In this document: in pieces, positions 17,759 to 34,667 of the stretch
Layout of the letters: every line of letters starts with the position of its first letter
How positions within the stretch are numbered: the first letter of the stretch is position 1
Origin: a virus
Length of the DNA stretch: 36,837 nt
Strand: one strand, 5' to 3'
IMG/VR virus record: IMGVR_UViG_3300042866_002051
Location: 1-36,837 of that record
Made by a program: the position numbers and the translations under genes
The notes under the pieces: generated by a model
Seen by the model: the letters and a program-made list of their open reading frames with translations, nothing else
The model's database searches: none
What the model was told of the DNA's origin: nothing

Positions 17759-17780
17759 CCCTAAATGCCGATGGGACCGC

Positions 17781-17869: not shown

Positions 17870-17921
17870 GATTTAGGTTCCGACGCCTCACGGCGTGTGG
17901 GTTCAAGTCCCTCCTTGCGCA
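17870..17921 (+). other. attP core: 3' half of a tRNA-Leu(UAG) gene
   Basis: GATTTAGGTTC (17870-17880) is the anticodon loop region with UAG at 17874-17876. CGCC-TCAC-GGCG follows as the long variable arm of a leucine tRNA. The T arm with TTCAAGT loop is at 17896-17913, then the acceptor strand CTTGCGC and discriminator A (17914-17921). The order matches the 3' half of bacterial tRNA-Leu(UAG). There is no 5' half and no encoded CCA, and one T-stem pair is mismatched, so this is an attachment site that would restore the host tRNA gene on integration, not a working tRNA. Confidence 0.85.
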
Positions 17922-21291: not shown

Positions 21292-21566
21292 GGGGCCCTC
21301 CCGAGGGCAGCTTCCGCGGCCTTCTTCGCGGCTTTGAGGGTTGGGGCGGCGCCCACCTTGCCCCCGGCCTCCCAGTTCCATCCGGCTCGCCCGGTGCGGC
21401 ACAAAGGCTTGCTGGCATAGACCACCAGGGCGTCTGGCTCACCGGGGTCTCCGAGGCTTCCCCATGATCCGTTACGCAGCTCCATGGCGAGGGGCGGATC
21501 CGGTGGGAACAGCAGCCGTAGCAGCCACCAAATCCAATCGATGAAGCGAGTCGTGAGGCTGGTCAC
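21288..21566 (-). CDS. Small protein with Trp-rich hydrophobic N-terminus
   Basis: 92 residues; GTG at 21566 overlaps the upstream stop (GTGA) and its own stop overlaps the next ATG (ATGA). Residues about 7-24 contain Trp-Ile-Trp-Trp-Leu-Leu-Arg-Leu-Leu-Phe, an amphipathic or membrane-surface helix. The remainder is a small strand-rich domain with a Lys/Ala helix at the end. Function unknown. Confidence 0.5.
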   Translation of the reverse strand: MTSLTTRFIDWIWWLLRLLFPPDPPLAMELRNGSWGSLGDPGEPDALVVYASKPLCRTGRAGWNWEAGGKVGAAPTLKAAKKAAEAALGRAP

Positions 21567-21628
21567 AGCAGCCCCCGGAGCCAGGCAAGGGCCCTGGCGA
21601 TACGGGCGAGGTGAGGGTGGTGCATCAT
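21563..21628 (-). CDS. 21-residue mini-protein
   Basis: ATG at 21628 and the stop at 21563 are both locked to neighbours by 4-base overlaps (ATGA upstream, GTGA downstream). The product starts Met-Met-His-His and continues as one amphipathic, Trp-containing helix. It may be a genuine micro-ORF or only a coupling device that carries ribosomes to the next gene. Confidence 0.35.
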   Translation of the reverse strand: MMHHPHLARIARALAWLRGLL

Positions 21629-21912
21629 GGTGCCTTCGGCGGGGGCGGGGCCAGGTCGGTGTCGTGGCGAGCGCGCCATGTGTCGAGGGCGCGGTGGACG
21701 CGGCCCGGGAGCGGCGCGTCGTCGAGCTGGACGACGACGGCCCGTGCCGCGCTGGCGAGGGTGTTGTGGCCAGCCACGCCGGGGGCTTTCGACGGGCGGT
21801 GCCCGACCTGGTTGACCACGCAAAGGCTGAATTTCCCGCGATCATCTGTGAGGATCTGGAGCGCGTGTCCCGGCGAGATGGCGCGGGCGAGGTCTTCGAT
21901 GGGATCAGTCAT
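21625..21912 (-). CDS. Hypothetical protein, 95 residues
   Basis: ATG at 21912. An acidic start is followed by strand-helix sequence (Gly-Lys-Phe-Ser-Leu-Cys-Val-Val-Asn), an Ala-rich helix and a C-terminal Trp-Arg-Ala-Arg-His-Asp-Thr-Asp-Leu motif followed by prolines. The last motif also ends the neighbouring 21905-22081 product. It overlaps that gene by eight bases. Function unknown. Confidence 0.5.
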   Translation of the reverse strand: MTDPIEDLARAISPGHALQILTDDRGKFSLCVVNQVGHRPSKAPGVAGHNTLASAARAVVVQLDDAPLPGRVHRALDTWRARHDTDLAPPPPKAP

Positions 21913-22081
21913 GGTCGTGGGCCTCCGGTGGTGGCGTCAGGTCGGTGTCATGCTCGGCGGTGCGCCACTCGTTCAGGATGGCGGCGCGTCGGGTGGGGGA
22001 GATCACCCACTCCCCGGACTCGGGAGGGGCGCAGGGGGCGGTGTCCCGCGAGGGCGGCGGGGGCGGGATGCAGGGCCTCAT
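21905..22081 (-). CDS. Hypothetical protein, 58 residues, shares HDTDL-PPP tail
   Basis: ATG at 22081 overlaps the upstream stop as ATGA. A Cys/Pro-rich start precedes a helix-turn region (Glu-Trp-Val-Ile-Ser-Pro-Thr-Arg-Arg) and the tail Glu-His-Asp-Thr-Asp-Leu-Thr-Pro-Pro-Pro. The tail matches that of the next gene, which suggests duplication or a common docking peptide. Function unknown. Confidence 0.45.
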   Translation of the reverse strand: MRPCIPPPPPSRDTAPCAPPESGEWVISPTRRAAILNEWRTAEHDTDLTPPPEAHDHD

Positions 22082-22380
22082 GGGGCCTCCAGGAGCTTGC
22101 GGAGGGCACGGATGGCAGGAGCGCTGCGGATGTCCTCCGTGCGACTCGTCGGGAGGTCGGCGGGCGGGTTCGCCGCGCACTCGTCGCAGGCGTACCAGCA
22201 GCCAGCGAACGGAGGCGCAAAGGTGCAAATCTTGGTGGCGATCGTGAGGTACTCGTGGCGGCGCCCAACGCATGAATGCGCGTCAAACCGGAGCGTATCC
22301 AGCAGCGACGCCGCGGCTTCTCGGAGGGCTCTGTGCTCGGCCTTCAGGGCGGCCAGGGCTTCGATTTGTGGGGCGCTCAC
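22078..22380 (-). CDS. Cys-containing hypothetical protein, 100 residues
   Basis: GTG at 22380 overlaps the upstream stop as GTGA. An N-terminal coiled-coil-like helix (residues 3-30) is followed by Cys/His residues and a Cys-Trp-Tyr-Ala-Cys-Asp-Glu-Cys cluster near residue 65, a likely metal site. The C-terminus is helical and basic. It joins the series of probable zinc-binding proteins of this operon. Confidence 0.5.
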   Translation of the reverse strand: MSAPQIEALAALKAEHRALREAAASLLDTLRFDAHSCVGRRHEYLTIATKICTFAPPFAGCWYACDECAANPPADLPTSRTEDIRSAPAIRALRKLLEAP

Positions 22381-22697
22381 GACGTCATCTCCAGCCAGAG
22401 CGCACGGCCGGCGCCGGTGAGGGTGTAGATCACGGGTTCGTCGTCCTCCCTGGAGAGCAGGCCCCGGCGGACCAGCGAGGTGGCGGCCGAGGCTTCGTTG
22501 CGGTTGACGGATGCGGACCCGGCGCGGGCGACCATTTCGAGGGCGCGGCACTGCGGGACGCTGAGGCGCTGAGCACGAGCGCAGGGACAGGGGGTGACGC
22601 GGAGCACGCCACAGCGGGCGCACCGGCGCAGGGGGATCCCCGGGGCCTCGTCGGCGCGGTCCGCGTGGGGGCTGGCGAGGGCGTAGGCGTCGGTCAT
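22377..22697 (-). CDS. Zinc-knuckle winged-helix protein, probable DNA-binding regulator
   Basis: 106 residues, ATG at 22697. Residues about 26-40 carry Cys-Ala-Arg-Cys and Cys-Pro-Cys, a likely zinc site. Residues about 45-104 form a winged helix: helix Gln-Cys-Arg-Ala-Leu-Glu-Met-Val, helix Asn-Glu-Ala-Ser-Ala-Ala-Thr-Ser-Leu-Val-Arg-Arg-Gly-Leu-Leu, and a wing ending Ile-Tyr-Thr-Leu-Thr. This resembles MarR/PadR-type folds. Its targets are unknown. Confidence 0.6.
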   Translation of the reverse strand: MTDAYALASPHADRADEAPGIPLRRCARCGVLRVTPCPCARAQRLSVPQCRALEMVARAGSASVNRNEASAATSLVRRGLLSREDDEPVIYTLTGAGRALWLEMTS

Positions 22698-22975
22698 GAC
22701 ATCCTCCCAAGCTCATCAAGAAGCGCACTCAGGGCGCGCGCCTCGGTGTCGCTGACGAGGTCGCGGTGCTCTCGGAGCAGCTCCGCGGCGATGAGCCGGA
22801 CCGCTCCGTTTGCGTCGTGGTCGGGGAGCCCGGTGATCGTGACGCGGTAAGCCGTCCCGGCGCCGTCCACGATGACGACGCGGAAGTGCGGCTCGCCGAA
22901 CGCAGGGGCGATGGCGCGCAGGTAGACCTCTCGATCCGGGAGGGCCCTGGCGAGGGCTTGCAAGGCGGCGCTCAC
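22694..22975 (-). CDS. Hypothetical protein, 93 residues
   Basis: GTG at 22975 overlaps the upstream stop as GTGA. A short helix, a beta meander (Phe-Arg-Val-Val-Ile-Val-Asp then Tyr-Arg-Val-Thr-Ile-Thr-Gly-Leu) and two Ala/Leu helices suggest a small alpha/beta fold. No family is recognised. Confidence 0.5.
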   Translation of the reverse strand: MSAALQALARALPDREVYLRAIAPAFGEPHFRVVIVDGAGTAYRVTITGLPDHDANGAVRLIAAELLREHRDLVSDTEARALSALLDELGRMS

Positions 22976-23400
22976 GCGGCCACCGCCGGGGCGTCGAGAC
23001 CGTACAGGGCCAGCTCCGCGCGCTCGCGGGCCAGCGGCAGGGGGTCCGCCGCGAGGATCTGCTGGCACCGGCGCCGCACCGCGGGGGCGACACCGCCGAC
23101 GATGGCGCCGCGACGGGCGAGCATGACCAGCTTGACGAGCGCCTTGGCTTCGTCGAGGTGCCGGAGGTCGAGGGCGTGGCGCTCTTCGCGGAGGGCCACC
23201 GGGAGCGCGGCGGCGCTGGTGCCGTGGAGGTCGAGCAGCTCGGCGGCGCGCATGGCTGCGGCCTTGACCGCGGGGGGTAGGCTGGCGTCCGCGGGGGTGC
23301 CGGTGAGGGCACGGGCGGCGCGGATGGGGGCGCCGTCGTAGAGGCGGTCTTCGTCGGAGGCGAGGGTGCGGAGGATGGTGCTGGGGAGGATCGTGGGCAT
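22972..23400 (-). CDS. Helical hypothetical protein, 142 residues
   Basis: ATG at 23400 with GGAG about ten bases upstream. The product is all helical, Ala/Leu/Arg-rich, with no TM segment and no catalytic motif. It is the second gene of the leftward operon, 84 bases after the first, and coupled to the next gene. Function unknown. Confidence 0.55.
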   Translation of the reverse strand: MPTILPSTILRTLASDEDRLYDGAPIRAARALTGTPADASLPPAVKAAAMRAAELLDLHGTSAAALPVALREERHALDLRHLDEAKALVKLVMLARRGAIVGGVAPAVRRRCQQILAADPLPLARERAELALYGLDAPAVAA

Positions 23401-23484
23401 GGTCGTGGTCTCCGTGGTGGGTGGGCTCGTGGGCCCCGCACTGCCCCCGCTCCGAGGAGGAGAGGCAGAACGTGGCCGGCGAGG

Positions 23485-23883
23485 TCAGGCGACCCGGCGC
23501 ACCGGCAGGCGCTCGTCACGCAGCGCCCGGGTGCGGCAGCGGAGTTCCACCGCGAGGTCATCGAGGGCGGCGGTGTCCTGGACGGTGGCCTGCCGCCAGT
23601 CGGCCGAGTCCCAGTCCTCGCAGCCGTGCTCCATGCGGAGGTCGCAGATCACACGGTCGGCAGCGTCCAGGAGGGCCCAGGGGAGGCTTCCGCCATCGAG
23701 GGCGATCCCGGCGGCGGCCAGCAGGGTCGCGGCCGAGAGGAAGGGGTTGGCGACCCCCAGGAGAGAGGCTGCGGCGTGGGCCTCGCGGAGGTCCGCGTCG
23801 AGGCTGGCGGCGGCCTCCAGGTCGTCAGACGGACGGGCGAAGGCGAGGAGCGAGGGGATGTTGGCGGTGTGTCGGCTGGGCAT
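23485..23883 (-). CDS. First gene of leftward early operon, unknown function
   Basis: 132 residues. ATG at 23883 lies only seven bases beyond the -10 element of the leftward promoter, so translation is probably leaderless. The product is helical and acidic with Asp-Asp-Leu-Glu and Asp-Ala-Asp-Leu-Arg segments, a Trp-Asp-Ser-Ala-Asp-Trp motif near residue 100 and a basic tail. Its place corresponds to the promoter-proximal gene of a lambda pL operon, where antiterminators or host-interaction factors are often found, but nothing in the sequence shows that role. Confidence 0.55.
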   Translation of the reverse strand: MPSRHTANIPSLLAFARPSDDLEAAASLDADLREAHAAASLLGVANPFLSAATLLAAAGIALDGGSLPWALLDAADRVICDLRMEHGCEDWDSADWRQATVQDTAALDDLAVELRCRTRALRDERLPVRRVA

Positions 23884-23890
23884 GTCCAGT

Positions 23891-23919
23891 AAACTAAACC
23901 GAACCACCCTCATGGTCAA
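23891..23919 (-). promoter_or_regulatory. Leftward early promoter (PL-like) with operator
   Basis: Minus strand TTGACC (23919-23914), 17-base spacer, TAGTTT (23896-23891). The end of the spacer and the start of the -10 read TTCGGTTTA (23903-23895), the same nine bases in the same register as the rightward promoter at 24869-24897. The first start codon is at 23883. Confidence 0.6.
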
Positions 23920-23936
23920 GTGCAAATGTTCAGAAA

Positions 23937-23949
23937 ACCGAACTTCGGT
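23937..23949. promoter_or_regulatory. Operator-like palindrome ACCGAACTTCGGT
   Basis: A perfect 13-base odd palindrome with ACCGAA / TTCGGT half-sites, the same half-sites as in the left and right promoters. It lies between the leftward promoter and the rightward membrane-protein gene at 23968 and could regulate either. Confidence 0.55.
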
Positions 23950-23967
23950 GGTGTTACAGAGTGAACC

Positions 23968-24357
23968 ATGGGGAAGACCCTGCTTTGGCTCATCTTGTGC
24001 TGGGTGGCGTTTGAGACGGGGGGCCCTATCGGCACCGCGGCCATGGTCGGGCTGTGGGTCGTGGTCGCCTACCTGCCGCAGAGGAGGCGCCAGGCCAGGG
24101 AGGCGGCGCGCACCTTCCACGAGAGCGACGCAAGCCACCCCTTCAAGTTCACCTCCACGACGGTGGACTTCGAGGAGATGACCCTCACCCGCAAGGTCTC
24201 ACGAGCGGGCGAAGAGGATGAGGAGGACTCGTGGACTCTGAGCCGCAAGGGCGAGGGCGCCTGGCTCCAGTGCGAGGCCGGCGAGTGGACGCCCCTGGGG
24301 GCGCACTTCGCAACGCGCCTGGAGGTCGCCTACCAGCGCTACCTCAGGACGCTTTGA
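23968..24357 (+). CDS. Membrane protein in the immunity region, superinfection-exclusion candidate
   Basis: 129 residues, ATG 23968. Residues about 3-37 are two closely spaced hydrophobic helices with a Gly-Gly-Pro-Ile-Gly turn, followed by a basic stop-transfer Arg-Arg-Arg and a soluble domain rich in Glu, Trp and Thr. It is transcribed alone, convergent with and overlapping the repressor gene by 14 bases, and preceded by an operator-like palindrome. Genes beside a phage repressor that encode small inner-membrane proteins often act in prophage-mediated exclusion; this is an inference from place. Confidence 0.6.
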   Translation: MGKTLLWLILCWVAFETGGPIGTAAMVGLWVVVAYLPQRRRQAREAARTFHESDASHPFKFTSTTVDFEEMTLTRKVSRAGEEDEEDSWTLSRKGEGAWLQCEAGEWTPLGAHFATRLEVAYQRYLRTL

Positions 24358-24817
24358 GGGCGCCGGGTGTGGGGGGTGCGCTCTCCAGGACGTGGTGCCA
24401 CCAGTCCACGAGCTGTTGCACTTGAAATTCGTCCAGGATCAAGACCTGCGGCGCCGGGGTGTTGCCGGCGGCTCGCCAGGCGGCCTCGCTGTAGAGGCGA
24501 CCCCGGGGGGTCATGGCGACGTTCTTCCGGATCTGCTCCCAGCCCGGGATCTGCCGGAGCAGGTAGGCTGACAGGGGGGTGGCCCCCTCTGCCTCGGCGT
24601 GGAGCTGCGCCGGGGTTTTGCCCAGGGCCTTGGCGAACCCCTGGACGGTGCGGAACCCCCCGCCGGCGCCCTTGTTCTTGATGGTGTTGATCGTCGCCTT
24701 GCTGAGCCCCGAGGCTTTGGCGAAGTCGACCTCTGTTCGCGTCGGATCCTCCGCCAGCCAGGCGAGGAGGAGCCGGCGGAGATGCGCGCTCATGCTCTCG
24801 TCGGGTGGTTTCGGCAT
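24344..24817 (-). CDS. Phage repressor, Cro/C1-type HTH (CI-like)
   Basis: 157 residues. ATG at 24817 (an in-frame TTG lies two codons upstream). Residues about 27-75 form an XRE-type HTH: Glu-Val-Asp-Phe-Ala-Lys-Ala-Ser-Gly-Leu-Ser then Ala-Thr-Ile-Asn-Thr-Ile, with Gly-Phe-Ala-Lys-Ala-Leu-Gly after it. The C-terminal half is a small alpha/beta region without the Ser-Lys catalytic dyad of LexA-type self-cleaving repressors, so induction may differ from lambda. It is divergent from a Cro-like gene and flanked by shared operator motifs, the standard arrangement of a lysogeny switch. Confidence 0.8.
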   Translation of the reverse strand: MPKPPDESMSAHLRRLLLAWLAEDPTRTEVDFAKASGLSKATINTIKNKGAGGGFRTVQGFAKALGKTPAQLHAEAEGATPLSAYLLRQIPGWEQIRKNVAMTPRGRLYSEAAWRAAGNTPAPQVLILDEFQVQQLVDWWHHVLESAPPTPGALKAS

Positions 24818-24845
24818 GCCCAATCCCTAGCGTTTCCGGCGTTTG

Positions 24846-24854
24846 GGTTTACCG
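24846..24854. promoter_or_regulatory. Operator half-site GGTTTACCG upstream of the repressor
   Basis: GGTTTACC recurs at 24888-24895 in the right operator, and GGTTTA-GTTTAC occurs on the minus strand in the left one. This copy is in the repressor's own upstream region and may allow autoregulation. Confidence 0.4.
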
Positions 24855-24868
24855 ACGTGGACAACCCC

Positions 24869-24903
24869 TTGCTTTTAGGCTACGTTCGGTTTACCTTACC
24901 GAA
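24869..24903 (+). promoter_or_regulatory. Rightward early promoter (PR-like) with operator
   Basis: TTGCTT (24869-24874), 17-base spacer, TACCTT (24892-24897). TTCGGTTTACCTTACCGAA (24885-24903) is an inverted repeat TTCGGT / ACCGAA covering the -10. The ATG of the Cro-like gene is eight bases after the -10, so the transcript would be nearly leaderless. Confidence 0.6.
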
Positions 24904-24905
24904 TC

Positions 24906-25187
24906 ATGGCCCGCCCGACACCAGCCCTCATCGCCCTGCGGAAGTTCATCCGCCGCCAAAGCCTGCAAAATGTACAGGTTGCCCGGGGGGTTGGCGTGTC
25001 CAAGGGGCTCGTCACGGGCTGGCTCTCTGGCGAGGGGCTCCCGGGCCCCCTGTTCCGCGTGCTGCTGGAGCGATGGACCGGCGGCGAGGTCCGCGCCGAC
25101 GAATGGTTCTCCCTGGAGGAGCGCGCCCAGATCGCACGCCAGGCCCCGTACCGCGCGGAGACCTCTGCCGCCGTCGAGGCCGCGTGA
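24906..25187 (+). CDS. Cro-like HTH regulator
   Basis: 93 residues, ATG 24906. Residues about 20-60 are a helix-turn-helix: Asn-Val-Gln-Val-Ala-Arg-Gly-Val-Gly-Val-Ser then Gly-Leu-Val-Thr-Gly-Trp-Leu, followed by the Pro-Leu-Phe-Arg-Val-Leu-Leu-Glu-Arg-Trp helix. It is the first gene of the rightward series and divergent from the repressor, the usual position of Cro. It is expected to bind the shared TTCGGT operators and to shut off repressor synthesis. Confidence 0.75.
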   Translation: MARPTPALIALRKFIRRQSLQNVQVARGVGVSKGLVTGWLSGEGLPGPLFRVLLERWTGGEVRADEWFSLEERAQIARQAPYRAETSAAVEAA

Positions 25188-25414
25188 CGGACCCCCTGGA
25201 CCAGCGCACCGCGCTCGCGGCACCGGCGCCCCTCTCGGCCACGGACCGCAGCACCCTGGAGTGTGCCTCGCGCATCCTCGCCATCGAGGCCCGCGAGTGC
25301 ATCGACCGCGCCTCGCTGGCGACGGGCGGCCCCGGTGACCTGGCCAGGGCGCTGGAGTGCTCCCAAGCTGCCCGGGCGATCCAGGAGCTGATCGCGCGTC
25401 GGGGTGCCCGGTGA
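25184..25414 (+). CDS. Small early protein, 76 residues, unknown
   Basis: GTG 25184 overlaps the Cro-like stop as GTGA. Two amphipathic helices with three Cys residues and Ala/Arg-rich surfaces; no motif recognised. It belongs to the rightward early transcript. Confidence 0.5.
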   Translation: MTDPLDQRTALAAPAPLSATDRSTLECASRILAIEARECIDRASLATGGPGDLARALECSQAARAIQELIARRGAR

Positions 25415-25728
25415 GCGCGCGGGTCTACGTCTGGCCCCGAGGGGTCGCGAAGGTCCCGCGGGGACCTGCCGCGAGCTTCTCCTGGGGCAGCGACGACGTG
25501 CCCCCGACCCCGGCAGAGGCCGCCGCGTGGTGGCGTGACCAGGCCCAGACCGCGCGGGACGAGGCGGCGCGGCTCTCCGGGGAGGTGCTCCGCGCCCTCG
25601 CCCGTGCCCAGAGCTGCGACCGCTTTGCCGCCCGCGTCGAAGAGAATTCCACCTGCCCGCCCCCTCGCGCCAACGAGGAGACGGGCTCTCCCACCTGCAC
25701 TGAAGGAGACCCCGATGAATCAGCATAG
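25411..25728 (+). CDS. Small early protein, 105 residues, unknown
   Basis: GTG 25411 overlaps the previous stop (GTGA). A strand-rich start (Val-Tyr-Val-Trp-Pro-Arg-Gly) is followed by a Trp-Trp helix, a coiled helix and a Pro/Cys/Glu-rich tail which overlaps the next gene by 14 bases. Function unknown. Confidence 0.5.
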   Translation: MSARVYVWPRGVAKVPRGPAASFSWGSDDVPPTPAEAAAWWRDQAQTARDEAARLSGEVLRALARAQSCDRFAARVEENSTCPPPRANEETGSPTCTEGDPDESA

Positions 25729-26230
25729 CACACCTATCGTCCCTGTCCCCGTCCCTGTCCTGGAGACCGTCGAGGTTTCTCTCCAGGATTCCCGTGGGCG
25801 TCTCGCCGCCCTCGCCGCCATCGCTCTGGACCGCTGCCCCGCGGAGCTGGTGGCGCGTCGCACGGGTCGCAGCCAGGCCACCGTCTACGGCTGGCGCCAC
25901 GAGGCCACCGTGGGCGGGCTCCGGGTGCTCGACCTGGTGCTGGCGCCCCGCCCCTTCGGGGTCATGGTGGCGCGCGGGCTCGTGGCGTCGATGGGCGCCC
26001 CGCCCCCGGATGGCCCCTCGCGCTCGGCGCTGGCGGCGGTCCTCGCGCGCATCGGCGGGCTGCTCCTGGTGGTCTCCCAGGAAGACCCCTCGCGGCTGTC
26101 CGACGAGGCCCTCCGCGATCGGCTCAAGACCCTCGACGAAGCCGAGGATGCGCTGAAGCGGGAGCGCCGGGCGTACGACATCGAGGCGATGCGCCGCCGG
26201 GTCCAGGTCCAGAAGGACGGTGGACGGTGA
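25715..26230 (+). CDS. HTH protein, CII-like regulator candidate
   Basis: 171 residues, ATG 25715 with a strong AAGGAG site seven bases upstream. A Pro-Val repeat start (residues 8-16) precedes a helix-turn-helix near residues 40-62 (Glu-Leu-Val-Ala-Arg-Arg-Thr-Gly-Arg-Ser-Gln-Ala-Thr-Val-Tyr-Gly-Trp) and a long C-terminal helical region rich in Asp/Glu/Arg (about 115-170). Its position between Cro and replication genes matches lambda cII. The role as activator is inferred. Confidence 0.55.
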   Translation: MNQHSTPIVPVPVPVLETVEVSLQDSRGRLAALAAIALDRCPAELVARRTGRSQATVYGWRHEATVGGLRVLDLVLAPRPFGVMVARGLVASMGAPPPDGPSRSALAAVLARIGGLLLVVSQEDPSRLSDEALRDRLKTLDEAEDALKRERRAYDIEAMRRRVQVQKDGGR

Positions 26231-26688
26231 GCGGCAAGACGTTTGCTGAGGGCATGGCCGAGAGGTGCGTCCAGGGACACGTTGACCCGCGAGGGGCGGA
26301 CTTCGTTCACCTGCGGGACAAGGCCGGCAGGGCGGTGCTGTCCGTGGCCCCCCGGGAGGTCCACTGCCCCCTCGGTTCGGCGCTGGGTTTCGTCCGCGCC
26401 GCCGTCGCCGAGCTGGTCGAGGCCGGCGTCGAGGAGGGCCGGCGCCAGGCTAGCGAGCCCTCCCCCGAGGCCCTCGCCGCCGCGCGAGCAGAAGGCCACG
26501 AGGCGGGGATCGCCGTCGGCTGGACGCGCGCCCTCGCGGTGGCGATCCGGGAGGTCGAGGCGCAGCAGGAGGGCGTGGATCTGCTGAGGCGGTCGCTGGC
26601 CCGGGGACAGGATGACCTGCGGGTGGCCGAGGCCATCCGCAACGCCATCTCCGAGGCGTCTCCGATCCAGGGGGGCTACGATGAGTGA
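26227..26688 (+). CDS. Early protein, 153 residues, unknown
   Basis: GTG 26227 overlaps the previous stop as GTGA. A beta-containing N-terminal part with His/Cys residues (Cys-Val-Gln-Gly-His, His-Cys-Pro) is followed by a long Ala/Glu helix from about residue 55 on, interrupted by Gly-His-Glu-Ala-Gly. No family recognised. Confidence 0.5.
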   Translation: MSGKTFAEGMAERCVQGHVDPRGADFVHLRDKAGRAVLSVAPREVHCPLGSALGFVRAAVAELVEAGVEEGRRQASEPSPEALAAARAEGHEAGIAVGWTRALAVAIREVEAQQEGVDLLRRSLARGQDDLRVAEAIRNAISEASPIQGGYDE

Positions 26689-26830
26689 CCTCGCCTTCAC
26701 CGTGGTCTTCAAGCGGCGCCGCGTCGGGCCGTTCCGGACGATCCGCGCGGCCGTCGAGGCGCTGCGCGCGGCTCGCGTCGAGGCCGGCGCCCCCCACGAG
26801 GGGCACATCAAGGCTGAGGTGGCGTCGTGA
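26681..26830 (+). CDS. Small basic protein, 49 residues
   Basis: ATG 26681 lies eight bases inside the end of the previous gene. A strand (Ala-Phe-Thr-Val-Val-Phe-Lys-Arg-Arg-Arg) followed by an Ala/Arg helix gives a compact basic protein. It is coupled to the RNase H-fold gene by GTGA. Function unknown. Confidence 0.5.
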   Translation: MSDLAFTVVFKRRRVGPFRTIRAAVEALRAARVEAGAPHEGHIKAEVAS

Positions 26831-27234
26831 TCGCTGAGGTCTACGTGGCGATCTGCCAGGACCGGGGCGACCAGCAGGCCCGGGTGGTCTTCCATGCCTA
26901 CGACGAGGACGGCCGGTGCAAGGAGGTTGCCCGGTACGTGCCCGCGCTCTCCACGTCCAACCAGACGGCGGCGCAGGCCATCTTGACGGCGCTGGAGAGG
27001 CTCCAGAAGCACGGCCACACGGGCACCGTCGTCTACACCAACCTGAAGGCCGCGGTGCCGCGCCCCGATCACCGGACCTACTCCGGCGCCGAGGGGTTTC
27101 AGGCGCTGGTGGACCGCATCCACCTCGCCTCCGTCGAGAGCGGCTGCGAGGTCGCGTGGTGCTCCTCGGGTCACCCGAGGATGGGCGCCGCCCGCGCGGT
27201 GGCCCGCGACGAGAGGGAGGAGGCGAGCCTATGA
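26827..27234 (+). CDS. RNase HI-fold protein lacking the catalytic acids
   Basis: 135 residues, GTG 26827. The order of elements matches RNase HI: an opening strand (Val-Tyr-Val), a helix after Ser-Asn-Gln-Thr (residues 43-60) at the place of the Glu-bearing helix, a strand Val-Val-Tyr-Thr-Asn (68-72) at the place of Tyr-Thr-Asp-Ser, and near the end Ser-Gly-His-Pro (114-117) followed by an Ala/Arg helix as in the Gly-His segment. The positions of Asp10, Glu48, Asp70 and Asp134 of the E. coli enzyme appear to be Ala/Val, Ala48, Asn72 and Arg123. If the alignment is right it binds nucleic acid but cannot cut. It directly precedes the primase-helicase. Confidence 0.5.
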   Translation: MIAEVYVAICQDRGDQQARVVFHAYDEDGRCKEVARYVPALSTSNQTAAQAILTALERLQKHGHTGTVVYTNLKAAVPRPDHRTYSGAEGFQALVDRIHLASVESGCEVAWCSSGHPRMGAARAVARDEREEASL

Positions 27235-29417
27235 GCGCCGCCGCCGCCGTTGACACCGTGGCGATCACCCTCTGGGAGAGCCTCACGAACCCCCGCGGGC
27301 GCCGGCTCGCCGCCGACTGGAACGGCGTGCTCGACCTCCCCGAGTGGCTGGCGCCGCCGGAGCTGCACGAGAAGCACGCCGGAAGGGGCTGGTCTCCGGC
27401 CACCTTCGCCGATGACCGCCGCGTCAAGGCCGGCGTCGAGTCTGTCTGCGCCCTGGTGCTCGACTACGAGGCCACGGAAGGACAGCTTCCCACGGACCCC
27501 AGCGAGGCCGCGGTGCTCTGGGGGCAGGTCCGGGGCTGGCTTCACACGACCTACTCCCACACCCCCGAGACGCCCCGGTTCCGGGTCGTGGTGCCCCTGT
27601 CCCGGAGCGTCACCGCCGAGGAGCACGCGGTCCTCTGGCGCTGGGCGGCGACCCGTTGCGCCGAGGCCGGGCACCAGATCGACGAGTCTTGCCGCGACGC
27701 GAGCCGGTTCTGGTTCCTGCCCGCGGTGCGCCCCGGGCGAGGCGGCGAGTACACCATGCTCCCCCTCGACGGGGAGGCGTGGCTCGAGGTCGATGCTGTG
27801 CTCCAGGAGCAGCGCGCAGCCGAAGCCCCGCCCCCTGCCCCGAAGCGCCAGGCGAGGGCGAGCCAGCCCGACGAGACCGGCGCCGCGCGGTTTGTCCGCA
27901 AGGCCCTTGACGGGGCTCTCGATGACCTGCGCCGGGCTCCCAAGGGGACGCGCCACAACACGATCAGGGTGAAGGCGTACCACCTCGCGGCCTACATCCA
28001 CACCGGCGCCATCGACGCGGACACCATCGAGCGCGAGCTGATGGCGGTGGCGAGCGCGGCGCGGTGGGAGAACCTCGACAAGACCCGGGCGACGATTCGC
28101 CACCAGATCCAGGCAGGGAGCCGCATGCCGAAGGACGTACCCCCGCGGCAGCACCCGAGCCGCGACGAGCAGCCGGCGCCCTCGTCTCCCCGCGGCAGCG
28201 GCTTCGCTCCTTCTCCTGCTCCCGAGGCAGAGGCCGCGACCGATGACGAGAGCTGGCACAGCCTGCTGATCTCTCGCCGGGGCGAGGTCACCAGCGATCT
28301 CGCCAACGTGGCGACGATCCTGGAGCACGAGTCCACCTGGCGCGGGCGCCTGCGGCTCAACGAGGCTCGCCAGCAGATCGAGGTCAAGATCGAGGCCGAC
28401 TGGCGCACCTGGCAGGACACCGATGACACCGACGGGGCGATCTGGCTCCAGCGCAACTGGAAGCTCCGGGTGCGCCCCGACGCGGTGTGTCAAGCGGTGG
28501 CCCTGTTGGCACAGCGCCAGCGCTGCAACCCCCTGGCGGTCTGGCTCCGCTCCCTGCGCTGGGATGGCGTGGCCCGCATCGACACTTGGCTCACCACCTA
28601 CGCGGGGGCCAAGGACAGCACCTACACCCGCGCGGCCGGCGCCTGCTGGCTCCGGTCTGCGGTGGCGCGGGCGCTGGTGCCTGGCGTCAAGGCCGACGCC
28701 ATGCTCGTGCTCGAAGGGCTCCAGGAGGCCGGCAAGAGCAGCCTGTTCCGGGTGATCGGTGGCGACTACTTCACCGACGACGTCCACGACCTCGCCTCGA
28801 AAGACGCGGTGATGGCCATCGCTCGGGCCTGGATCGTCGAGCTGCCCGAGCTGTCGTCCCTCGGGCGCGCCGAGGTCGAGCTGGTGAAGGCGTTCCTCTC
28901 GCGGCAGGTCGACCGGATCCGCCCTCCCTACGGGCGCGCCATCGTCGAGCTTCTCCGTCGGTGCGTGTTCGGGGGCACCACCAACCGCGCCGACTACCTG
29001 AAGGACGACACGGGCAACCGGCGGTTCTGGCCGGTGGCCGTGGGGCTGGTTGACCTCGACGCCCTGCGCCGCGACCGCGAGCAGCTCCTGGCCGAAGCCG
29101 TGGCGAGCTGGGATGCGGGGGGCCTGCTCTACCTCCCGACGGAGGCGAGGGAGGCCCATGCCGAAGCCGTCGAGGGGCGCCGGCAAGAGGACCCGTGGGA
29201 GAGCGAGGTCGGCCGATGGCTCGCGGGCAGGACCTCGGTGACCAGCGCCGACGTGCTCGGGTCGGCTCTCCAGATCCCCACCGACCGGTGGACGCGAGGC
29301 GACCAGATGCGGGTCGGGCAGGTCCTGGCGCGGCTCGGGTGGCGAAAGAGACGGGTGCGGGTAGGTGCCGACCTGGAATGGCGGTACCTGAAGGGAGGCG
29401 ACGATGTTCCAACCTGA
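27231..29417 (+). CDS. Primase-helicase: archaeo-eukaryotic-type primase with VirE-like SF3 helicase
   Basis: 728 residues, ATG 27231 (ATGA overlap). Residues about 70-180 resemble an archaeo-eukaryotic primase module: strand Leu-Val-Leu-Asp-Tyr-Glu (Asp78, Glu80), a Phe-Arg-Val-Val-Val-Pro strand and a Ser-Arg-Phe-Trp-Phe-Leu-Pro segment. Residues about 215-300 are a helical linker domain. From about 430 the VirE/DUF-type ATPase follows: Gly-Leu-Gln-Glu-Ala-Gly-Lys-Ser-Ser (Lys502) as Walker A, Trp-Ile-Val-Glu-Leu-Pro-Glu (534-540) as Walker B, and Gly-Thr-Thr-Asn-Arg with Gly-Asn-Arg-Arg-Phe-Trp-Pro (581-601) as arginine-finger region. It would start and unwind phage DNA replication, probably at the iterons directly downstream. 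Confidence 0.85.
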   Translation: MSAAAAVDTVAITLWESLTNPRGRRLAADWNGVLDLPEWLAPPELHEKHAGRGWSPATFADDRRVKAGVESVCALVLDYEATEGQLPTDPSEAAVLWGQVRGWLHTTYSHTPETPRFRVVVPLSRSVTAEEHAVLWRWAATRCAEAGHQIDESCRDASRFWFLPAVRPGRGGEYTMLPLDGEAWLEVDAVLQEQRAAEAPPPAPKRQARASQPDETGAARFVRKALDGALDDLRRAPKGTRHNTIRVKAYHLAAYIHTGAIDADTIERELMAVASAARWENLDKTRATIRHQIQAGSRMPKDVPPRQHPSRDEQPAPSSPRGSGFAPSPAPEAEAATDDESWHSLLISRRGEVTSDLANVATILEHESTWRGRLRLNEARQQIEVKIEADWRTWQDTDDTDGAIWLQRNWKLRVRPDAVCQAVALLAQRQRCNPLAVWLRSLRWDGVARIDTWLTTYAGAKDSTYTRAAGACWLRSAVARALVPGVKADAMLVLEGLQEAGKSSLFRVIGGDYFTDDVHDLASKDAVMAIARAWIVELPELSSLGRAEVELVKAFLSRQVDRIRPPYGRAIVELLRRCVFGGTTNRADYLKDDTGNRRFWPVAVGLVDLDALRRDREQLLAEAVASWDAGGLLYLPTEAREAHAEAVEGRRQEDPWESEVGRWLAGRTSVTSADVLGSALQIPTDRWTRGDQMRVGQVLARLGWRKRRVRVGADLEWRYLKGGDDVPT

Positions 29418-29634
29418 AGGTAGGAACACTCGGAGGTTGGAACATGGTAGGAACAGCCTATTTTCTGGCTGTTGTGCCAACGTTCCGGCCACGAACCCGG
29501 GAAACATTAGCCAAACCAGTAACCATCTAATCTTCTTTAAGGTTGGAACAGTAGGAACAGTAGGAACAACAGGGAAGAACACCTGTGTTCCTACCCTGTT
29601 CCGACCTCTCGCCGGGGAGCCGGTGGTTGGAACG
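29405..29634. other. Iteron cluster, probable replication origin
   Basis: About eleven copies of a 10-base element GGTNGGAACA occur in 230 bases. Forward copies are at 29419, 29435, 29446, 29541, 29550, 29559 and 29625 (the last ends in G). Reverse copies are at 29405, 29586 and 29597, with a weaker one at 29481. The first pair and the 29586/29597 pair are inverted relative to neighbours. Between the two groups, 29456-29540 is the AT-richest stretch of the region. It lies at the 3' end of the primase-helicase gene, whose stop is inside the cluster. Bases 29418-29622 hold no convincing gene. Confidence 0.75.
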
Positions 29635-29811
29635 TCCTGCCCCCGGCGCCAACGCTGGGCCCAGGTCACCTGCCCCCTCGACCGGAGCCCCCGCAGCCTG
29701 GGCGGCATGTGGCTCGCGTACTACCTCGACCAGGGCGCCACCCTGGACGACGCACGGGGCCTCGCCCGGAGCACCTGCCGCGCCCTGTACCCGGAGACGT
29801 TCCTGTCATGA
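29623..29811 (+). CDS. Small protein after the origin, 62 residues
   Basis: GTG 29623 with GGGGAG just upstream is preferred; the frame is open back to ATG 29404, but that part is iteron DNA with no protein character. The product has Cys-Pro near the start and middle, a Met-Trp-Leu-Ala-Tyr-Tyr helix and a Cys-containing end. Coupled by ATGA to the RusA-like gene. Function unknown. Confidence 0.5.
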   Translation: MVGTSCPRRQRWAQVTCPLDRSPRSLGGMWLAYYLDQGATLDDARGLARSTCRALYPETFLS

Positions 29812-30386
29812 CCCTGCGCCTCTCCGAGCTCGCCCAGGACGAAGCCCTCGCCACCGGCGCCGTCCTCGCCAGCCCCCACCACAGCGCCGCGGCGCTCTCC
29901 AAGGCCCAGGCCAAGGTCCGCACCCTCCAGAGCCAGCTCGACGCCACCAGGCACCAGCTCCAGGACGCGCTACGGGAGCTGGACGAGCAGGCCCCGCGGT
30001 GGCGCCAGCTCTTCGTCCTGACGGCCCCCATCGCCACCGTGAGCGAGGCCAACCAGCGCGACCACCATCAGGCCAAGGCGAAGCGCGCCGCTCGCCAGAG
30101 GGACGCCATGACGGCTGCCCTCCGGTGCCTGTCCGTCGACCCCGAGGAGATGCCCCGGCGCCTCCGCGTCACGTTCACCCGGCTCGCCTCGGGGACGCTG
30201 GATGACGACAACCTGGCCGGCGCCTTCAAAGCGTGCCGCGACGCCGTGGCCGCCTGGCTGGGCGTCGACGACGGACCCCGAGGCCCCATCACCTGGAGCT
30301 ACGCCCAGGAACCCCACAAACGCCACCGCAACGCGCCAGGGATCCTCGTCACCTTCGAGGAGCCGGCGCCGAGGAGGACCCCTTGA
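29808..30386 (+). CDS. RusA-like Holliday junction resolvase
   Basis: 192 residues, ATG 29808. Residues about 25-100 are a charged coiled coil absent from E. coli RusA. Residues about 118-185 carry the RusA core: strand Leu-Arg-Val-Thr-Phe-Thr, then Leu-Asp-Asp-Asp-Asn-Leu (Asp132-134, Asn135), Lys141, Asp145 and Gly-Val-Asp-Asp (154-155), matching the acidic metal-binding set and lysine of RusA. It would resolve branched DNA before packaging and recombination. It lies just after the origin and before the packaging genes. Confidence 0.75.
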   Translation: MTLRLSELAQDEALATGAVLASPHHSAAALSKAQAKVRTLQSQLDATRHQLQDALRELDEQAPRWRQLFVLTAPIATVSEANQRDHHQAKAKRAARQRDAMTAALRCLSVDPEEMPRRLRVTFTRLASGTLDDDNLAGAFKACRDAVAAWLGVDDGPRGPITWSYAQEPHKRHRNAPGILVTFEEPAPRRTP

Positions 30387-30757
30387 GCGAGAAGAACGAC
30401 GACCAGGAGCACGTCCCTGTCCCCGCGTTGCGCAATCGATGGCGCTGGTACGGGGAGCAAGACTGGGCAAACCGTCCAGACGAAAGCCCGGTTCACTTCC
30501 ACGGGACGTTCAGGATCATCGAGGTCGTAAAAGAAGAGGGAGCCACCTGGATCAAGAACGACCACGATGAGAACTGGCGGGCCGTCGTTCACTTCCACCC
30601 GGATGTCCCGGCGATTGGAAGCGAGCTTGTCCACGAGGGCGGCACGGTCACCGTCGCGGACATCGAGGACCACAACCTCACCGTCTTGACGTGCGCTTCC
30701 CCGACCCCTCCCAAGCTCAGGTACGGCGATGTCCTGGCGCCCCGGGTGACCCCATGA
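30383..30757 (+). CDS. Hypothetical protein, 124 residues, beta-rich
   Basis: TTG 30383 overlaps the previous stop as TTGA and has GGAGGA nearby. Many His, Trp and Asp residues and alternating strands (Thr-Phe-Arg-Ile-Ile-Glu-Val-Val, Val-Val-His-Phe-His, Val-Thr-Val-Ala-Asp-Ile) suggest a small beta-barrel. Its DNA is less GC-rich than neighbours. Function unknown. Confidence 0.5.
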   Translation: MSEKNDDQEHVPVPALRNRWRWYGEQDWANRPDESPVHFHGTFRIIEVVKEEGATWIKNDHDENWRAVVHFHPDVPAIGSELVHEGGTVTVADIEDHNLTVLTCASPTPPKLRYGDVLAPRVTP

Positions 30758-30945
30758 CCTCCCCCGCCCCGTCCCTGACCTGCATGGGCCTCCCCGCTCG
30801 CGTCGTCTCCAGCAAGGCCCGCGACGTCGCCCTGTTCTTCCCCGACGAGCCGCCACCCATGCACTACCGCGCCTGTGTCCTGGAGGACGGCCGGTGCGTC
30901 GCCGTGCCGGCCTCGTGGGTCCAGCGCGCAGAGGAGACCCCATGA
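30754..30945 (+). CDS. Small protein, 63 residues
   Basis: ATG 30754 overlaps the previous stop (ATGA). Short strand-rich sequence with Cys and Pro residues (Ala-Leu-Phe-Phe-Pro-Asp-Glu-Pro-Pro-Pro) and a Trp near the end. Function unknown. Confidence 0.5.
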   Translation: MTSPAPSLTCMGLPARVVSSKARDVALFFPDEPPPMHYRACVLEDGRCVAVPASWVQRAEETP

Positions 30946-31232
30946 GCTGCCCCGTCACCACCATCGACTTCGGCGAACTGGTCCGCTGCACCCTCCCCGA
31001 GGGCCACACGGGCCTCCACGAGTCCGCGCCCTACCCGGTGCCAGGGCCCTACAGCGAGAGCACGCCCCCCGACGACCTCGCCGCCTGGCGTGGCCTTGCC
31101 ATCGCCCTGCGGGGGCGCCTCACCGCGACCCAGGAGGCAGCGCGGGCCTACGTCGACGCGAGGGAGCGGGTCGACCCGGACGGGGAACGCGAGGCGAAGG
31201 CAAGGCTGGAGGAGGTGCTACGTGACCGCTGA
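30942..31232 (+). CDS. Small protein with possible Cys/His metal site, 96 residues
   Basis: ATG 30942 overlaps the previous stop (ATGA). Two Cys residues near the start and His-Thr-Gly-Leu-His at about 25-29 could bind zinc; a Pro-rich linker and a long Ala/Arg/Glu helix follow. The end overlaps the next gene by 11 bases. Function unknown. Confidence 0.5.
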   Translation: MSCPVTTIDFGELVRCTLPEGHTGLHESAPYPVPGPYSESTPPDDLAAWRGLAIALRGRLTATQEAARAYVDARERVDPDGEREAKARLEEVLRDR

Positions 31233-31509
31233 GGACGCCATCGCCAGGGCTCGCGCCATAGCCTACGGGGTCGCCCTCGATGGCCTGGGTGTGGCCTTCG
31301 ATCCTGACGCCAGCCCCCTGACCCTGCTCCTTCTGGTCCAGCAGGAGACCGCCCGGGCCCGCGAGCTGGGGGAGGCGGTAGCCGACTACCTCAGCGCCCT
31401 CGACGCGGCTGGGGAAGACGACCCGCCCGGCGTGGCCCGCCTCCGGGAGCTGTGCCCGGTGATGACCCTCAAGGACGCCTTCAAGGCGCTGAACACGGTG
31501 GAACCATGA
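31222..31509 (+). CDS. Helical hypothetical protein, 95 residues
   Basis: GTG 31222. Entirely helical with Leu/Ala-rich segments and a central Leu-Thr-Leu-Leu-Leu-Leu-Val; no TM segment long enough to be certain. Coupled to the next gene by ATGA. Function unknown. Confidence 0.5.
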   Translation: MTAEDAIARARAIAYGVALDGLGVAFDPDASPLTLLLLVQQETARARELGEAVADYLSALDAAGEDDPPGVARLRELCPVMTLKDAFKALNTVEP

Positions 31510-31796
31510 GCACGCCCCCACGCTTGCCCCCCGAGCTGACCCTCAAGATCCGCGCTGCGCGTGACCACCACGTCATGAAGGTCGCCGGGCTCCTGGCACA
31601 GCACTTCCCCGGGGGTGGTTCACGAGAGCCCGCGGCCCTCGCGGGAGCCCTCCAAGACCTCACCCTCGATGCCCTCCTCGCCATCGCCGAGGCGTCCTAC
31701 ACGCAGGGCCTCGCCACCGCGGGCGACGCTCGCCAGGCCATCGACGATCTGGCCACCCTGCGCGCCGCCGCTCGCATCCTGACGGGGGGACGATGA
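31506..31796 (+). CDS. Helical hypothetical protein, 96 residues
   Basis: ATG 31506 overlaps the previous stop as ATGA. Consists of three or four Ala/Leu helices with a Gly-Gly-Gly-Ser loop near residue 36; no motif recognised. It lies between replication and packaging genes. Confidence 0.5.
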   Translation: MSTPPRLPPELTLKIRAARDHHVMKVAGLLAQHFPGGGSREPAALAGALQDLTLDALLAIAEASYTQGLATAGDARQAIDDLATLRAAARILTGGR

Positions 31797-32020
31797 CCCG
31801 CATCGAACGGCGCCGCCGTGCTCGCCTGGCCGTGGCCTACCGCCGCTATCACCGCGTCCAGCGTGACGAGATGGGCCAGACCCGGCGCCCCGTCGCCTGC
31901 GGCTGCTCGATGGCGGTCCTCACCGCCCTCTGGGGTCTGGTCGATGCAGAGGTCCGGGCCGGCGAGAAGCTCTGGCCCAAGGTCATGACGGGCGGAACCC
32001 TGAAGGTGTACGGCCGATGA
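31793..32020 (+). CDS. Basic small protein, 75 residues
   Basis: ATG 31793 overlaps the previous stop. An Arg-rich helix at residues 4-28 (Arg-Arg-Arg-Arg-Ala-Arg) is followed by Cys-Gly-Cys and a hydrophobic helix with Trp. The basic helix could contact nucleic acid. It is directly coupled to the terminase small subunit gene. Confidence 0.5.
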   Translation: MTRIERRRRARLAVAYRRYHRVQRDEMGQTRRPVACGCSMAVLTALWGLVDAEVRAGEKLWPKVMTGGTLKVYGR

Positions 32021-32508
32021 CCACCCGCGAGGGGACCGCCGCCGCCCGTTCCTCGGGCCGTTCGGGGAAAACCATCCGACTGGTCGGGGACGACACTCGG
32101 CCCGCTCCCGAAATCGGGGAAGCGCGCCCCATCGCAGGCATCCCCCTCGCGTCAGAAAAGGCCGCGTACATCCTCGGACTGAAGCTCTCCGGGGTCTGGA
32201 ACTCCAACCACCGGAACAAGCTCGCCGCGGAGTGGGGTTGCACCCCCGACGGCGTGGACAAGGTTGCGGAGAAGGTCAACGCCGTCCTCGCCCGGATCAT
32301 CGGCGACGACCCCACCCGGCGCCTCGTGGTCTCCCAGCTCCTGCTCGCGCTCCGGGAGGTCGAGACGGTGGCCGACCCCGCCAAGCGCATCCCCCTGCGG
32401 GTCAAGGTGGTAGCCGAACTGTCGAAGGTCACCGGCCTCGTCAAGAGTTCCTTCAGCCTCACCCCCTCCGGCGGTCTCTCCCTCGACGCCCTCAAGGGGG
32501 GCTCGTGA
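32017..32508 (+). CDS. Terminase small subunit candidate
   Basis: 163 residues, ATG 32017 (ATGA overlap). A disordered, Ser/Arg-rich start is followed at about residues 56-80 by Ser-Asn-His-Arg-Asn-Lys-Leu-Ala-Ala-Glu-Trp-Gly-Cys-Thr-Pro-Asp-Gly-Val, a helix-turn-helix of the kind terminase small subunits use to bind packaging sites, and then long oligomerisation-type helices. It lies 1.1 kb before the large subunit gene. The call comes from fold pattern and order. Confidence 0.6.
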   Translation: MTTREGTAAARSSGRSGKTIRLVGDDTRPAPEIGEARPIAGIPLASEKAAYILGLKLSGVWNSNHRNKLAAEWGCTPDGVDKVAEKVNAVLARIIGDDPTRRLVVSQLLLALREVETVADPAKRIPLRVKVVAELSKVTGLVKSSFSLTPSGGLSLDALKGGS

Positions 32509-32849
32509 GGGTTGCCGATCTCCAGCCCGAGACGCCCCCGCCCGCGTGGCTCCTGCACAAGCCCACGTTCAGGCTCACCCGGGAGCGGGTCGAACTACTC
32601 CACGTTGCGGTGACCGCGGCGCACGTCGCTGGCGTGGTCAACGGCGAGACCCGAGGAGCCCCCGACCCGGAGCGTTTCCGCATCTGGCTCTTCGGGGCAC
32701 AGTACGACCCCGCAGACGCCGTGGTGGCCATCGCCCTCAGGATCGCGGCCCACCCCCCGGAGCTGCAAGACCGCCCGGTGTTCCAGCACCTCCTTGGCAA
32801 GATGGAAGACCTGGCCGATGCGTGGCCCTGGTGGACGGTGAGGTCATGA
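32505..32849 (+). CDS. Hypothetical protein between terminase genes, 114 residues
   Basis: GTG 32505 overlaps the previous stop (GTGA). Helical with several Trp residues and a His-Val-Ala-Val-Thr-Ala-Ala-His segment; ends Trp-Pro-Trp-Trp. Function unknown. Not obviously a nuclease (no HNH motif). Confidence 0.5.
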   Translation: MRVADLQPETPPPAWLLHKPTFRLTRERVELLHVAVTAAHVAGVVNGETRGAPDPERFRIWLFGAQYDPADAVVAIALRIAAHPPELQDRPVFQHLLGKMEDLADAWPWWTVRS

Positions 32850-33103
32850 GCGCCATCGTCCAGATCCACTGGCCCTCGATGCGGGTCGACACCCTGCCCT
32901 CCGGCAGCCCGGTGCCTCGCGTGGGCGAGGAGGTCACCGCCCTCGACCTCCAGCCCCTTTCGGGAGGGCGCCGGGGGGTCCGTCGGGTCATGCGCCGCGG
33001 CATCGTGGCCAGCGTGGTCTACCTCCTGGAGCGCGACGAGATGCTACCCACGACGGAGCACCGCCTCTGGGTGCAGGTCACCATGAGGCGCTGTGGCCGC
33101 TAA
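32846..33103 (+). CDS. Small beta-rich protein, 85 residues
   Basis: ATG 32846 overlaps the previous stop. Short strands (Ile-Val-Gln-Ile-His-Trp, Val-Val-Tyr-Leu-Leu, Leu-Trp-Val-Gln-Val) with basic loops suggest an SH3-like barrel. It overlaps the terminase large subunit gene by 11 bases. Function unknown. Confidence 0.5.
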   Translation: MSAIVQIHWPSMRVDTLPSGSPVPRVGEEVTALDLQPLSGGRRGVRRVMRRGIVASVVYLLERDEMLPTTEHRLWVQVTMRRCGR

Positions 33104-34667
33104 GAAGAAGGCCCCCGCCGAGTCCTCGGGCCCGCCGAGCCTGGAGGACCTGTTGACCTCGCCGCTGGGGTTCCGGCTGGTGACCGCGACCCCGGTACAG
33201 CGCGCCGTCTGTCGCGCCATCGAGGGGCGTCCGCTCGGCGACCTCGCCAGCGAGCCCAACGTGCTCCGGGCCTTCGGTGGCGCCGCTGCCGTCGAGGCGC
33301 TGCCCCTTGCTCGCCCCCGCGAGGTCTACCTGATCGCCGGCATCCGCGCGGCGAAGAGCCTGATTGCTGCCGCCGCCGCGGTGCTGTCCACGCAGACGGT
33401 CGACATCTCCCAGCTCGGCGCTGGCGAGATGGCGCGCGTGTCGGTGGTGTCGCTGAGCATCGACACGGCCAAGGTGGTCTACGGCCACATCCTGGGCAAC
33501 GTCCAGGCAAGCCCGGTGCTCCGGCAGCTCCTGGTGGGCGAGCCCACCGCCGACACGGTGACGCTACGCCATCCGTCCGGGCGCCCCATCGAGATCAAGG
33601 TCGTCGCAGGCAGCAAGGCCGGCGGCACCCTCGTTGCTCGCTGGTCGGCAGGCGTCATCTTCGACGAGGCCCCGCGCATGAGCGGCGATGAGGCCGTCGT
33701 CAACTTCAGCGACGCCCGCGCTGCGGTCCTCGGCCGTCTGCTCCCCGGCGCCCAGCTTCTCGCCATCGGCTCGCCCTGGGAGGCCGAGGGCCCCGTCTAC
33801 GAAACCGTCATGGCTCGCCATGGCGCCCCCACCGCGAGCCTCGTGGTGGTCCGTGCGCCCGCGGACGTCATGAACCCCGTCTGGTGGACGGCGGAGAAGG
33901 TGGACGAGTTCCGGCGCGACAACCCCGAGCTGGCCCGCACCGAGATTGATGCGGAGTTCGGCCTCGTCAACGGCGCCTCGTTCTTCGTGGCCAGCGACTT
34001 CGAGCTGCTCTTCAGCGACACCGCGCGGCGCGACGCGGGGCCCGGCGACCTGATCTCGTCGGCGGTCGACCTGGGGTTCGTTCGGAACTCCGCGACCCTC
34101 GCTGTCCTGTCGGAGCGCTCCGGCGTGGCGGACGCCATCGACCTCCAGGAGCTACGCCCCGAGCCCACGAGGGCCCTCGTCCCGTCGGTCGTGTGCTCCT
34201 CCTTCGCCGCCGCCCTGAAGGCGCGTCACTGCGGGATGGCGGTGGCGGACGGGCACTATCGCGAGACGCTCCGCGAGCACACGGACCCCGTCGGCGTGAG
34301 CCTGTACGACGGCCCCGGACCCGGCGAGCGGTTCCTGGCGCTGCGGCTCCAGGTGCGCGCCGGGACGCTGCGGGTCAACCCCGCGCTGCCCGAAGCCCAA
34401 CGGCTCCGGCGTCAGCTCGGGCAGGTGCGCCCCCGCCTCGCCCCCGGAGGCGTGCTCTCGGTGGTGCTGCCCGAGGACACCGACGGATCCCACTGCGACC
34501 TTGCCGACGTGCTCGCGCGCGCCGCGTGGGGTCGCCAGCGCTACGGGGGCACGCCGGTGCCTGCTCCCGTCAACCCCATCGACGCCCTGGAGGCGTCCCT
34601 GATCGCCAAGCTCGAAGCCCGCGCGAACGAGGAGAAGAACAAGCCATGGTATCGAAGGCAATCCTGA
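33093..34667 (+). CDS. terL: Terminase large subunit
   Basis: 524 residues, GTG 33093. The ATPase half has Ala-Gly-Ile-Arg-Ala-Ala-Lys-Ser (82-89, Lys88) as a variant Walker A and Val-Ile-Phe-Asp-Glu (Asp191, Glu192) as Walker B plus catalytic Glu, with Gly-Ser-Pro-Trp (226-229) as the coupling motif. The nuclease half has Asp326 (Ala-Val-Asp-Leu-Gly), Asp386 (Val-Ala-Asp-Gly) and Asp469/Asp472 (Cys-Asp-Leu-Ala-Asp) as the RNase H-like metal ligands. It pumps DNA through the portal and cuts the concatemer. It overlaps the portal gene by 22 bases. Confidence 0.92.
   Translation: MAAKKKAPAESSGPPSLEDLLTSPLGFRLVTATPVQRAVCRAIEGRPLGDLASEPNVLRAFGGAAAVEALPLARPREVYLIAGIRAAKSLIAAAAAVLSTQTVDISQLGAGEMARVSVVSLSIDTAKVVYGHILGNVQASPVLRQLLVGEPTADTVTLRHPSGRPIEIKVVAGSKAGGTLVARWSAGVIFDEAPRMSGDEAVVNFSDARAAVLGRLLPGAQLLAIGSPWEAEGPVYETVMARHGAPTASLVVVRAPADVMNPVWWTAEKVDEFRRDNPELARTEIDAEFGLVNGASFFVASDFELLFSDTARRDAGPGDLISSAVDLGFVRNSATLAVLSERSGVADAIDLQELRPEPTRALVPSVVCSSFAAALKARHCGMAVADGHYRETLREHTDPVGVSLYDGPGPGERFLALRLQVRAGTLRVNPALPEAQRLRRQLGQVRPRLAPGGVLSVVLPEDTDGSHCDLADVLARAAWGRQRYGGTPVPAPVNPIDALEASLIAKLEARANEEKNKPWYRRQS

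Follow-up and report, generated by a model that had tools for sequence, protein, structure and literature searches.

The iteron array at 29405-29634 is, as judged from sequence comparisons, likely to be the replication origin of this phage, with the product of the preceding gene, a VapE-type helicase, acting as its initiator; we put the probability of this reading at about 0.86. The first-pass annotation had proposed an iteron origin recognised either by the primase-helicase itself or by a small neighbouring protein. The former is the best supported, given the conservation of the sites, the arrays 3' of many vapE genes and the co-variation of the iterons with the winged helix of the helicase, whereas the latter is not favoured because vapE and the array remain paired across lineages in which the adjacent gene changes.

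The phage genome

The window, i.e., the whole stretch of DNA that was analysed, is a record of 36,837 bp with a GC content of 0.71. An exact 127-bp direct repeat is present at both termini (1-127 and 36711-36837), so this is probably the whole genome of the phage, ~36.7 kb in length and assembled as a circle. Since genes for a portal, a major head and an internal virion protein are carried together with an integrase, the element is a full temperate tailed phage and not a satellite. PICIs are satellites without their own full virion gene set, which is not the case for this genome; the module is PICI-like and the element that carries it is a phage. A megablast search of 20000-36837 against phage records returned zero matches. 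At the 3' end of the integrase gene there is a direct repeat, CGGTCCCGATWCCGGTCCCGATAGG (17780-17804 and 17992-18016; 96% identical), the two copies of which are possibly integrase arm sites or the attachment region.

Organization of the iteron array

Of the eight exact copies of GGTNGGAACA in the genome, seven fall within 29405-29606 and the other is at 21502; allowing one mismatch raises this to 10 in 29405-29634 and two elsewhere. Exact GTNGGAAC is found 14 times genome-wide, with 10 of these copies, on both strands, in 29400-29640 (sites 29406-29633), where 0.03 would be expected in a 240-bp stretch at the local composition (Poisson P ~2e-22). This is the densest cluster of short repeats in the genome, with no comparable cluster elsewhere. 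Two additional degenerate sites bring the total to 10 exact plus two (Table 1), in agreement with the earlier count of about eleven elements in both orientations. The first iteron had also been rightly placed inside the coding end of the replication gene, where it encodes the C-terminal residues VPT and is directly followed by the TGA stop codon (29415-29417).

Table 1. Positions of the putative origin, its predicted initiator and associated features.
Feature	Position	Strand	Remarks
Integrase gene	17903-19123	-	
VapE-type replication helicase, 728 aa	27231-29417	+	Proposed initiator; Pfam PF05272, E 4.9e-71
C-terminal winged helix	29193-29393	+	Proposed iteron reader; residues 655-721, from model secondary structure
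Iteron 1, GGTTGGAACA	29405-29414	-	Inside last codons of helicase gene; conserved in L009 and L079
Iteron 2, GGTAGGAACA	29419-29428	+	Without mirror partner
Iteron 3, GGTTGGAACA	29435-29444	+	Mirror partner 29597-29606
Iteron 4, GGTAGGAACA	29446-29455	+	Mirror partner 29586-29595
Inverted repeat, ACAGCC-TATTTTCT-GGCTGT	29453-29472		8-nt spacer; left half, between iteron 4 and the degenerate pair
Degenerate iteron, GTTGGCAC	29474-29481	-	Mirror partner 29560-29567; identical in three phages
Degenerate iteron, GCCGGAAC	29482-29489	-	Mirror partner 29551-29558; 7/8 bases identical in three phages
AT-rich region	29495-29540	.	Presumed melting region; lowest-GC 60-mers; contains symmetry axis
Iteron, GGTTGGAACA	29541-29550	+	First in 9-bp-phased triplet
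Iteron, AGTAGGAACA	29550-29559	+	Second in 9-bp-phased triplet
Iteron, AGTAGGAACA	29559-29568	+	Third in 9-bp-phased triplet
Iteron, GGTAGGAACA	29586-29595	-	Mirror partner 29446-29455
Iteron, GGTCGGAACA	29597-29606	-	Mirror partner 29435-29444
Iteron, GGTTGGAACG	29625-29634	+	Mirror partner iteron 1

The AT-rich stretch that the first-pass annotation saw flanked by repeats in a GC-rich genome is real and coincides with the genome's lowest-GC 60 bp (60-mers starting at 29502-29503; GC 0.37 vs 0.71 for the genome). The sites are also arranged as mirror images around this stretch, a feature absent from that annotation. Five pairs (29482-/29551+, 29474-/29560+, 29447+/29587-, 29436+/29598- and 29406-/29626+) have coordinate sums of 59032-59034, agreeing within 1-2 bp, and place the axis at ~29520, inside the AT-rich stretch. 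Five mirrored pairs among 12 sites correspond to P = 0.00025, but the symmetry requires the two degenerate sites and is not significant with the ten exact sites only (P 0.78), so that it is weak in this genome alone and rests on the comparative set described below.

Cumulative GC skew, which had been proposed as a check for an inflection at the site, does change slope near 29.5-29.8 kb, but it reaches its genome-wide extremes elsewhere, at 24.8 and 13.1 kb, and to the right of the site the strand has more C than G. The skew is not decisive, neither supporting nor excluding an origin here.

Conservation in close relatives

Two close relatives were compared with this phage (L009, the helicase of which is 77% identical, and L079), and all 12 sites keep their position and orientation in both. 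Across the three phages the iteron cores are identical at 83/84 positions, as against 13/46 bases in the AT-rich centre, which diverges in sequence while keeping its AT-rich composition, and 48/88 positions in the other spacers; the N position of the iteron is identical in 6/12. On sequence grounds, this pattern reflects selection that acts on the iterons as sites for a protein. The inverted repeat in the left half has identical arms, is almost fully identical as a whole in the three phages and exceeds the other spacers in conservation, which iteron binding does not explain.

The VapE-type helicase

The 728-aa protein has a weak primase-like N-terminal part, a helicase core and a C-terminal winged helix, and its PHROG matches are to DNA helicase (E 2e-106) and, at residues 74-193, to DNA primase (E 5e-15). 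In the AlphaFold2 model, residues 340-725 mostly have pLDDT > 90, and the elements of the winged helix (helices 655-664, 672-679 and 689-701, and a wing at 704-721) have a pLDDT of about 95. The best PDB match is 7pds, PriRep1 with dsDNA (Foldseek E 4e-27; sequence profile E 2e-103), a structure known to us from PDB titles and annotated as 'similar to D. nodosus vapE'. VapE genes are common in phages, this one having 859 matching records in the phage collection, and their annotation usually goes no further than primase, helicase or 'virulence-associated'. The earlier statement that no iteron-binding initiator of a known Rep family is present was wrong, as the nearest solved fold to this VapE helicase is that of PriRep1 and the Reps of islands bind iterons directly 3' of their own gene by means of the C-terminal domain (PMC7581432).

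Arrays at other VapE loci

Two samples of loci were collected, one from DNA and the other from protein alone. In the DNA-only scan, viral contigs were queried with three tandem 9-mers and 77 contigs were returned, in 23 of which vapE adjoins the cluster, almost always at no more than ~275 bp from the vapE 3' end. A second group comprises 11 linked proteins beside GTNGGAAC arrays, mostly DUF927 helicases, several of which have an HTH_56 domain or a DnaG zinc ribbon; other contigs have one-directional arrays near neither VapE nor the DUF927-type group.

At the VapE loci gathered by protein, a count of GTNGGAAC only gave 0/80 loci, but this result was overturned as a refutation by a de novo search, in which most loci were found to have their own iteron in the same layout (e.g., TGGTGACA, GTGGGACA, GTAGGACA, TGGGTACA, GTTGGAC, CCGGACC or ACTGGAAC). 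Arrays with 8 or more sites and 3 or more mirrored pairs lie just 3' of vapE at 44/77 of these loci, a figure that is no estimate of prevalence as the sample over-represents one Pseudomonas-type group with many close relatives. The same thresholds gave no array in control segments upstream (0/74), inside vapE (0/80) or further downstream (0/67; 0/221 altogether). Different iterons have one common geometry across lineages, including the cultured phages RcAqua (6 mirrored pairs), APSE-1 (5) and PS3 (5). Arrays are also present in cultured phiFL4A, QT1, Bacuni_F1, LWP01, S-LBS1 and vB_Pae_U5, those of Gram-positive phages having a related but different geometry, and no recognisable array was found at some VapE loci (e.g., L089, Mica, ep3 and ctHz2215). 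In Staphylococcus phage QT1, repeat regions marked by the depositors at the 3' end of the VapE-type helicase gene (L175:3804-4162) coincide with the array.

Co-variation of iterons and the winged helix

The iteron sequence differs between lineages and, in these sequence comparisons, tracks the C-terminal winged helix and not the motor core. In 47 dereplicated loci, with relatedness partially controlled, the partial Mantel correlation between iteron and winged-helix similarity given the motor core was r 0.26 (P < 0.0005), as opposed to -0.12 between iteron and motor core given the winged helix. Among 41 Pseudomonas-type loci, the best-correlated columns for the three variable iteron positions were winged-helix residues 688, 701 and 702, although the winged helix holds only 38 of the 362 variable columns. 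At these loci the position-3 variants fall into two non-overlapping sets according to whether residue 701 is K or R, the fraction of G at iteron position 3 being 0.56-1.0 in the 31 loci with R701 and 0-0.22 in those with K701 (n=10).

These results bear on other explanations of the array. The site could be an origin at which recognition of the iterons and loading of the helicase fall to a separate small protein, with a gene that lies, for example, just 3' of the array (29620-29811) or 5' of the helicase gene; a short reading frame that follows the array is indeed partly conserved between this phage and L009, and in the 11 DNA-scan contigs with a DUF927-type or other helicase at GTNGGAAC arrays one iteron is common to two helicase families. 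We nevertheless regard this as improbable, as the neighbour that varies beside the constant pair of vapE and array is RusA-like here and a VRR-NUC nuclease in several Gram-positive phages, Pseudomonas phages have another ORF between vapE and the array, none of the neighbours tested has a Pfam match, and it is the winged helix of VapE that tracks the iteron sequence.

The repeats could instead be operator sites for a regulator of replication or of downstream genes and not an origin. Short sites clustered on both strands beside genes are typical of operators too, and some initiators autoregulate. Such a role is very unlikely for at least 10 sites spread over 230 bp around the most AT-rich spot of a genome that has no comparable cluster elsewhere, especially as the arrays are 3' of vapE in many lineages, were never upstream in the survey and co-vary with the helicase's own winged helix. 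A third alternative, in which the repeats would serve a plasmid-like prophage as a partition (centromere-like) or incompatibility site, is scarcely credible, since, although such sites can have iteron arrays, this phage encodes an integrase, no partition protein was found among the subset of proteins scanned and the array is associated with a helicase.

Comparison with known origins and proposed mechanism

The proposed origin and its VapE-type helicase resemble, feature by feature, the rep-ori of SaPIs and PICIs (SaPI1/SaPIbov1 Rep; EcCICFT073 pri-rep-ori), and by this analogy a self-loading helicase origin like theirs is the most likely reading of the site. As in those elements, the gene for a helicase-initiator is followed by two iteron sets around an AT-rich region, the predicted initiator is a PriRep1/VapE-type AAA+ helicase (PF05272, 7pds) with a C-terminal DNA-binding domain (the predicted winged helix, 655-721), and the origin is immediately 3' of rep, its first iteron overlapping the last codons. 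The differences are that this is a full temperate phage and that it has its own iteron, GTNGGAAC. Every PICI origin has an AT-rich region with an iteron set on either side, and the PICI rep-ori supports the replication of a plasmid (PMC6092414). The same study stated that no other known bacterial replicon has this organisation; the phages described here share this layout. As only open-access papers were searched, earlier descriptions in phages are possible.

In SaPI Rep and the SCCmec helicase Cch2 it is the C-terminal domain that recognises the iterons, which lie directly 3' of the respective gene, and the proteins have been proposed to bind as two hexamers (PMC7581432). Cch2, with its putative origin, resembles the present case in the position of its iterons, but is of the D5/Primase_Cterm type and has AAGTG iterons; no primase-polymerase pair was seen in this phage.

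Iteron plasmid and lambda O origins also have short repeated initiator sites beside an AT-rich region, as does the array here, but in this phage the proposed initiator is the helicase itself, and its gene does not carry the iterons in its middle. A classical iteron plasmid replicon was rejected, as no plasmid Rep family was found among the subset of proteins scanned and there is no DnaA box near the site, the only one genome-wide being a one-mismatch box at 17218.

The iterons, their conservation and mirror geometry, the predicted helicase and winged-helix fold and the iteron co-variation are all sequence-based, and we infer a mechanism in which the C-terminal winged helix of the helicase would read the GTNGGAAC iterons, with the two mirror half-arrays (~6 sites each, including the degenerate ones) gathering two oppositely facing helicase assemblies, putatively hexameric rings, around the AT-rich centre. 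The duplex would melt at this centre, the helicases would self-load with no need of a loader from the host, and replication would proceed outward in both directions from primers made by the primase-like N-terminal part or by the host. More tentatively, and at slightly less than even odds, the island-type origin could be a general class in tailed phages, each VapE having a mirror-symmetric array of ~6 + 6 iterons specific to its lineage, with one site for each subunit in a pair of facing hexamers, and with winged-helix residues 688, 701 and 702 (Pseudomonas-type numbering) setting a readable DNA-specificity code. If the main reading of the site is right, the origins of many VapE phages could be located from the sequence immediately 3' of vapE, the natural pairs of winged helix and iteron would be a ready experimental system for origin recognition by self-loading helicases, and ordinary phages would share a layout that had been regarded as peculiar to phage-inducible islands.

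GTNGGAAC arrays beside other genes

Several phage contigs have DUF927 (Cch-type) helicase genes, some with HTH_56, at the 3' end of which lie GTNGGAAC arrays that, as here, combine 9-bp triplets with a long gap (L020, L023, L024, L028, L033, L036, L038 and L047). These helicases are of a different family from VapE, and hhalign detected no homology between their C-terminal domain and the VapE winged helix (probability 2%). One-directional GTNGGAAC arrays, with 13-21 copies in ~300 bp, are present in L012, L016, L043, L049 and L050, and VapE was not found within these loci. In L025, L030, L040 and L076 a common ORF of ~230-300 aa, without a Pfam match (members L025 and L030), overlaps the GTNGGAAC array and in L030 is placed after a DnaG/DnaB-type primase-helicase; it is possibly an initiator with sites inside its own gene.
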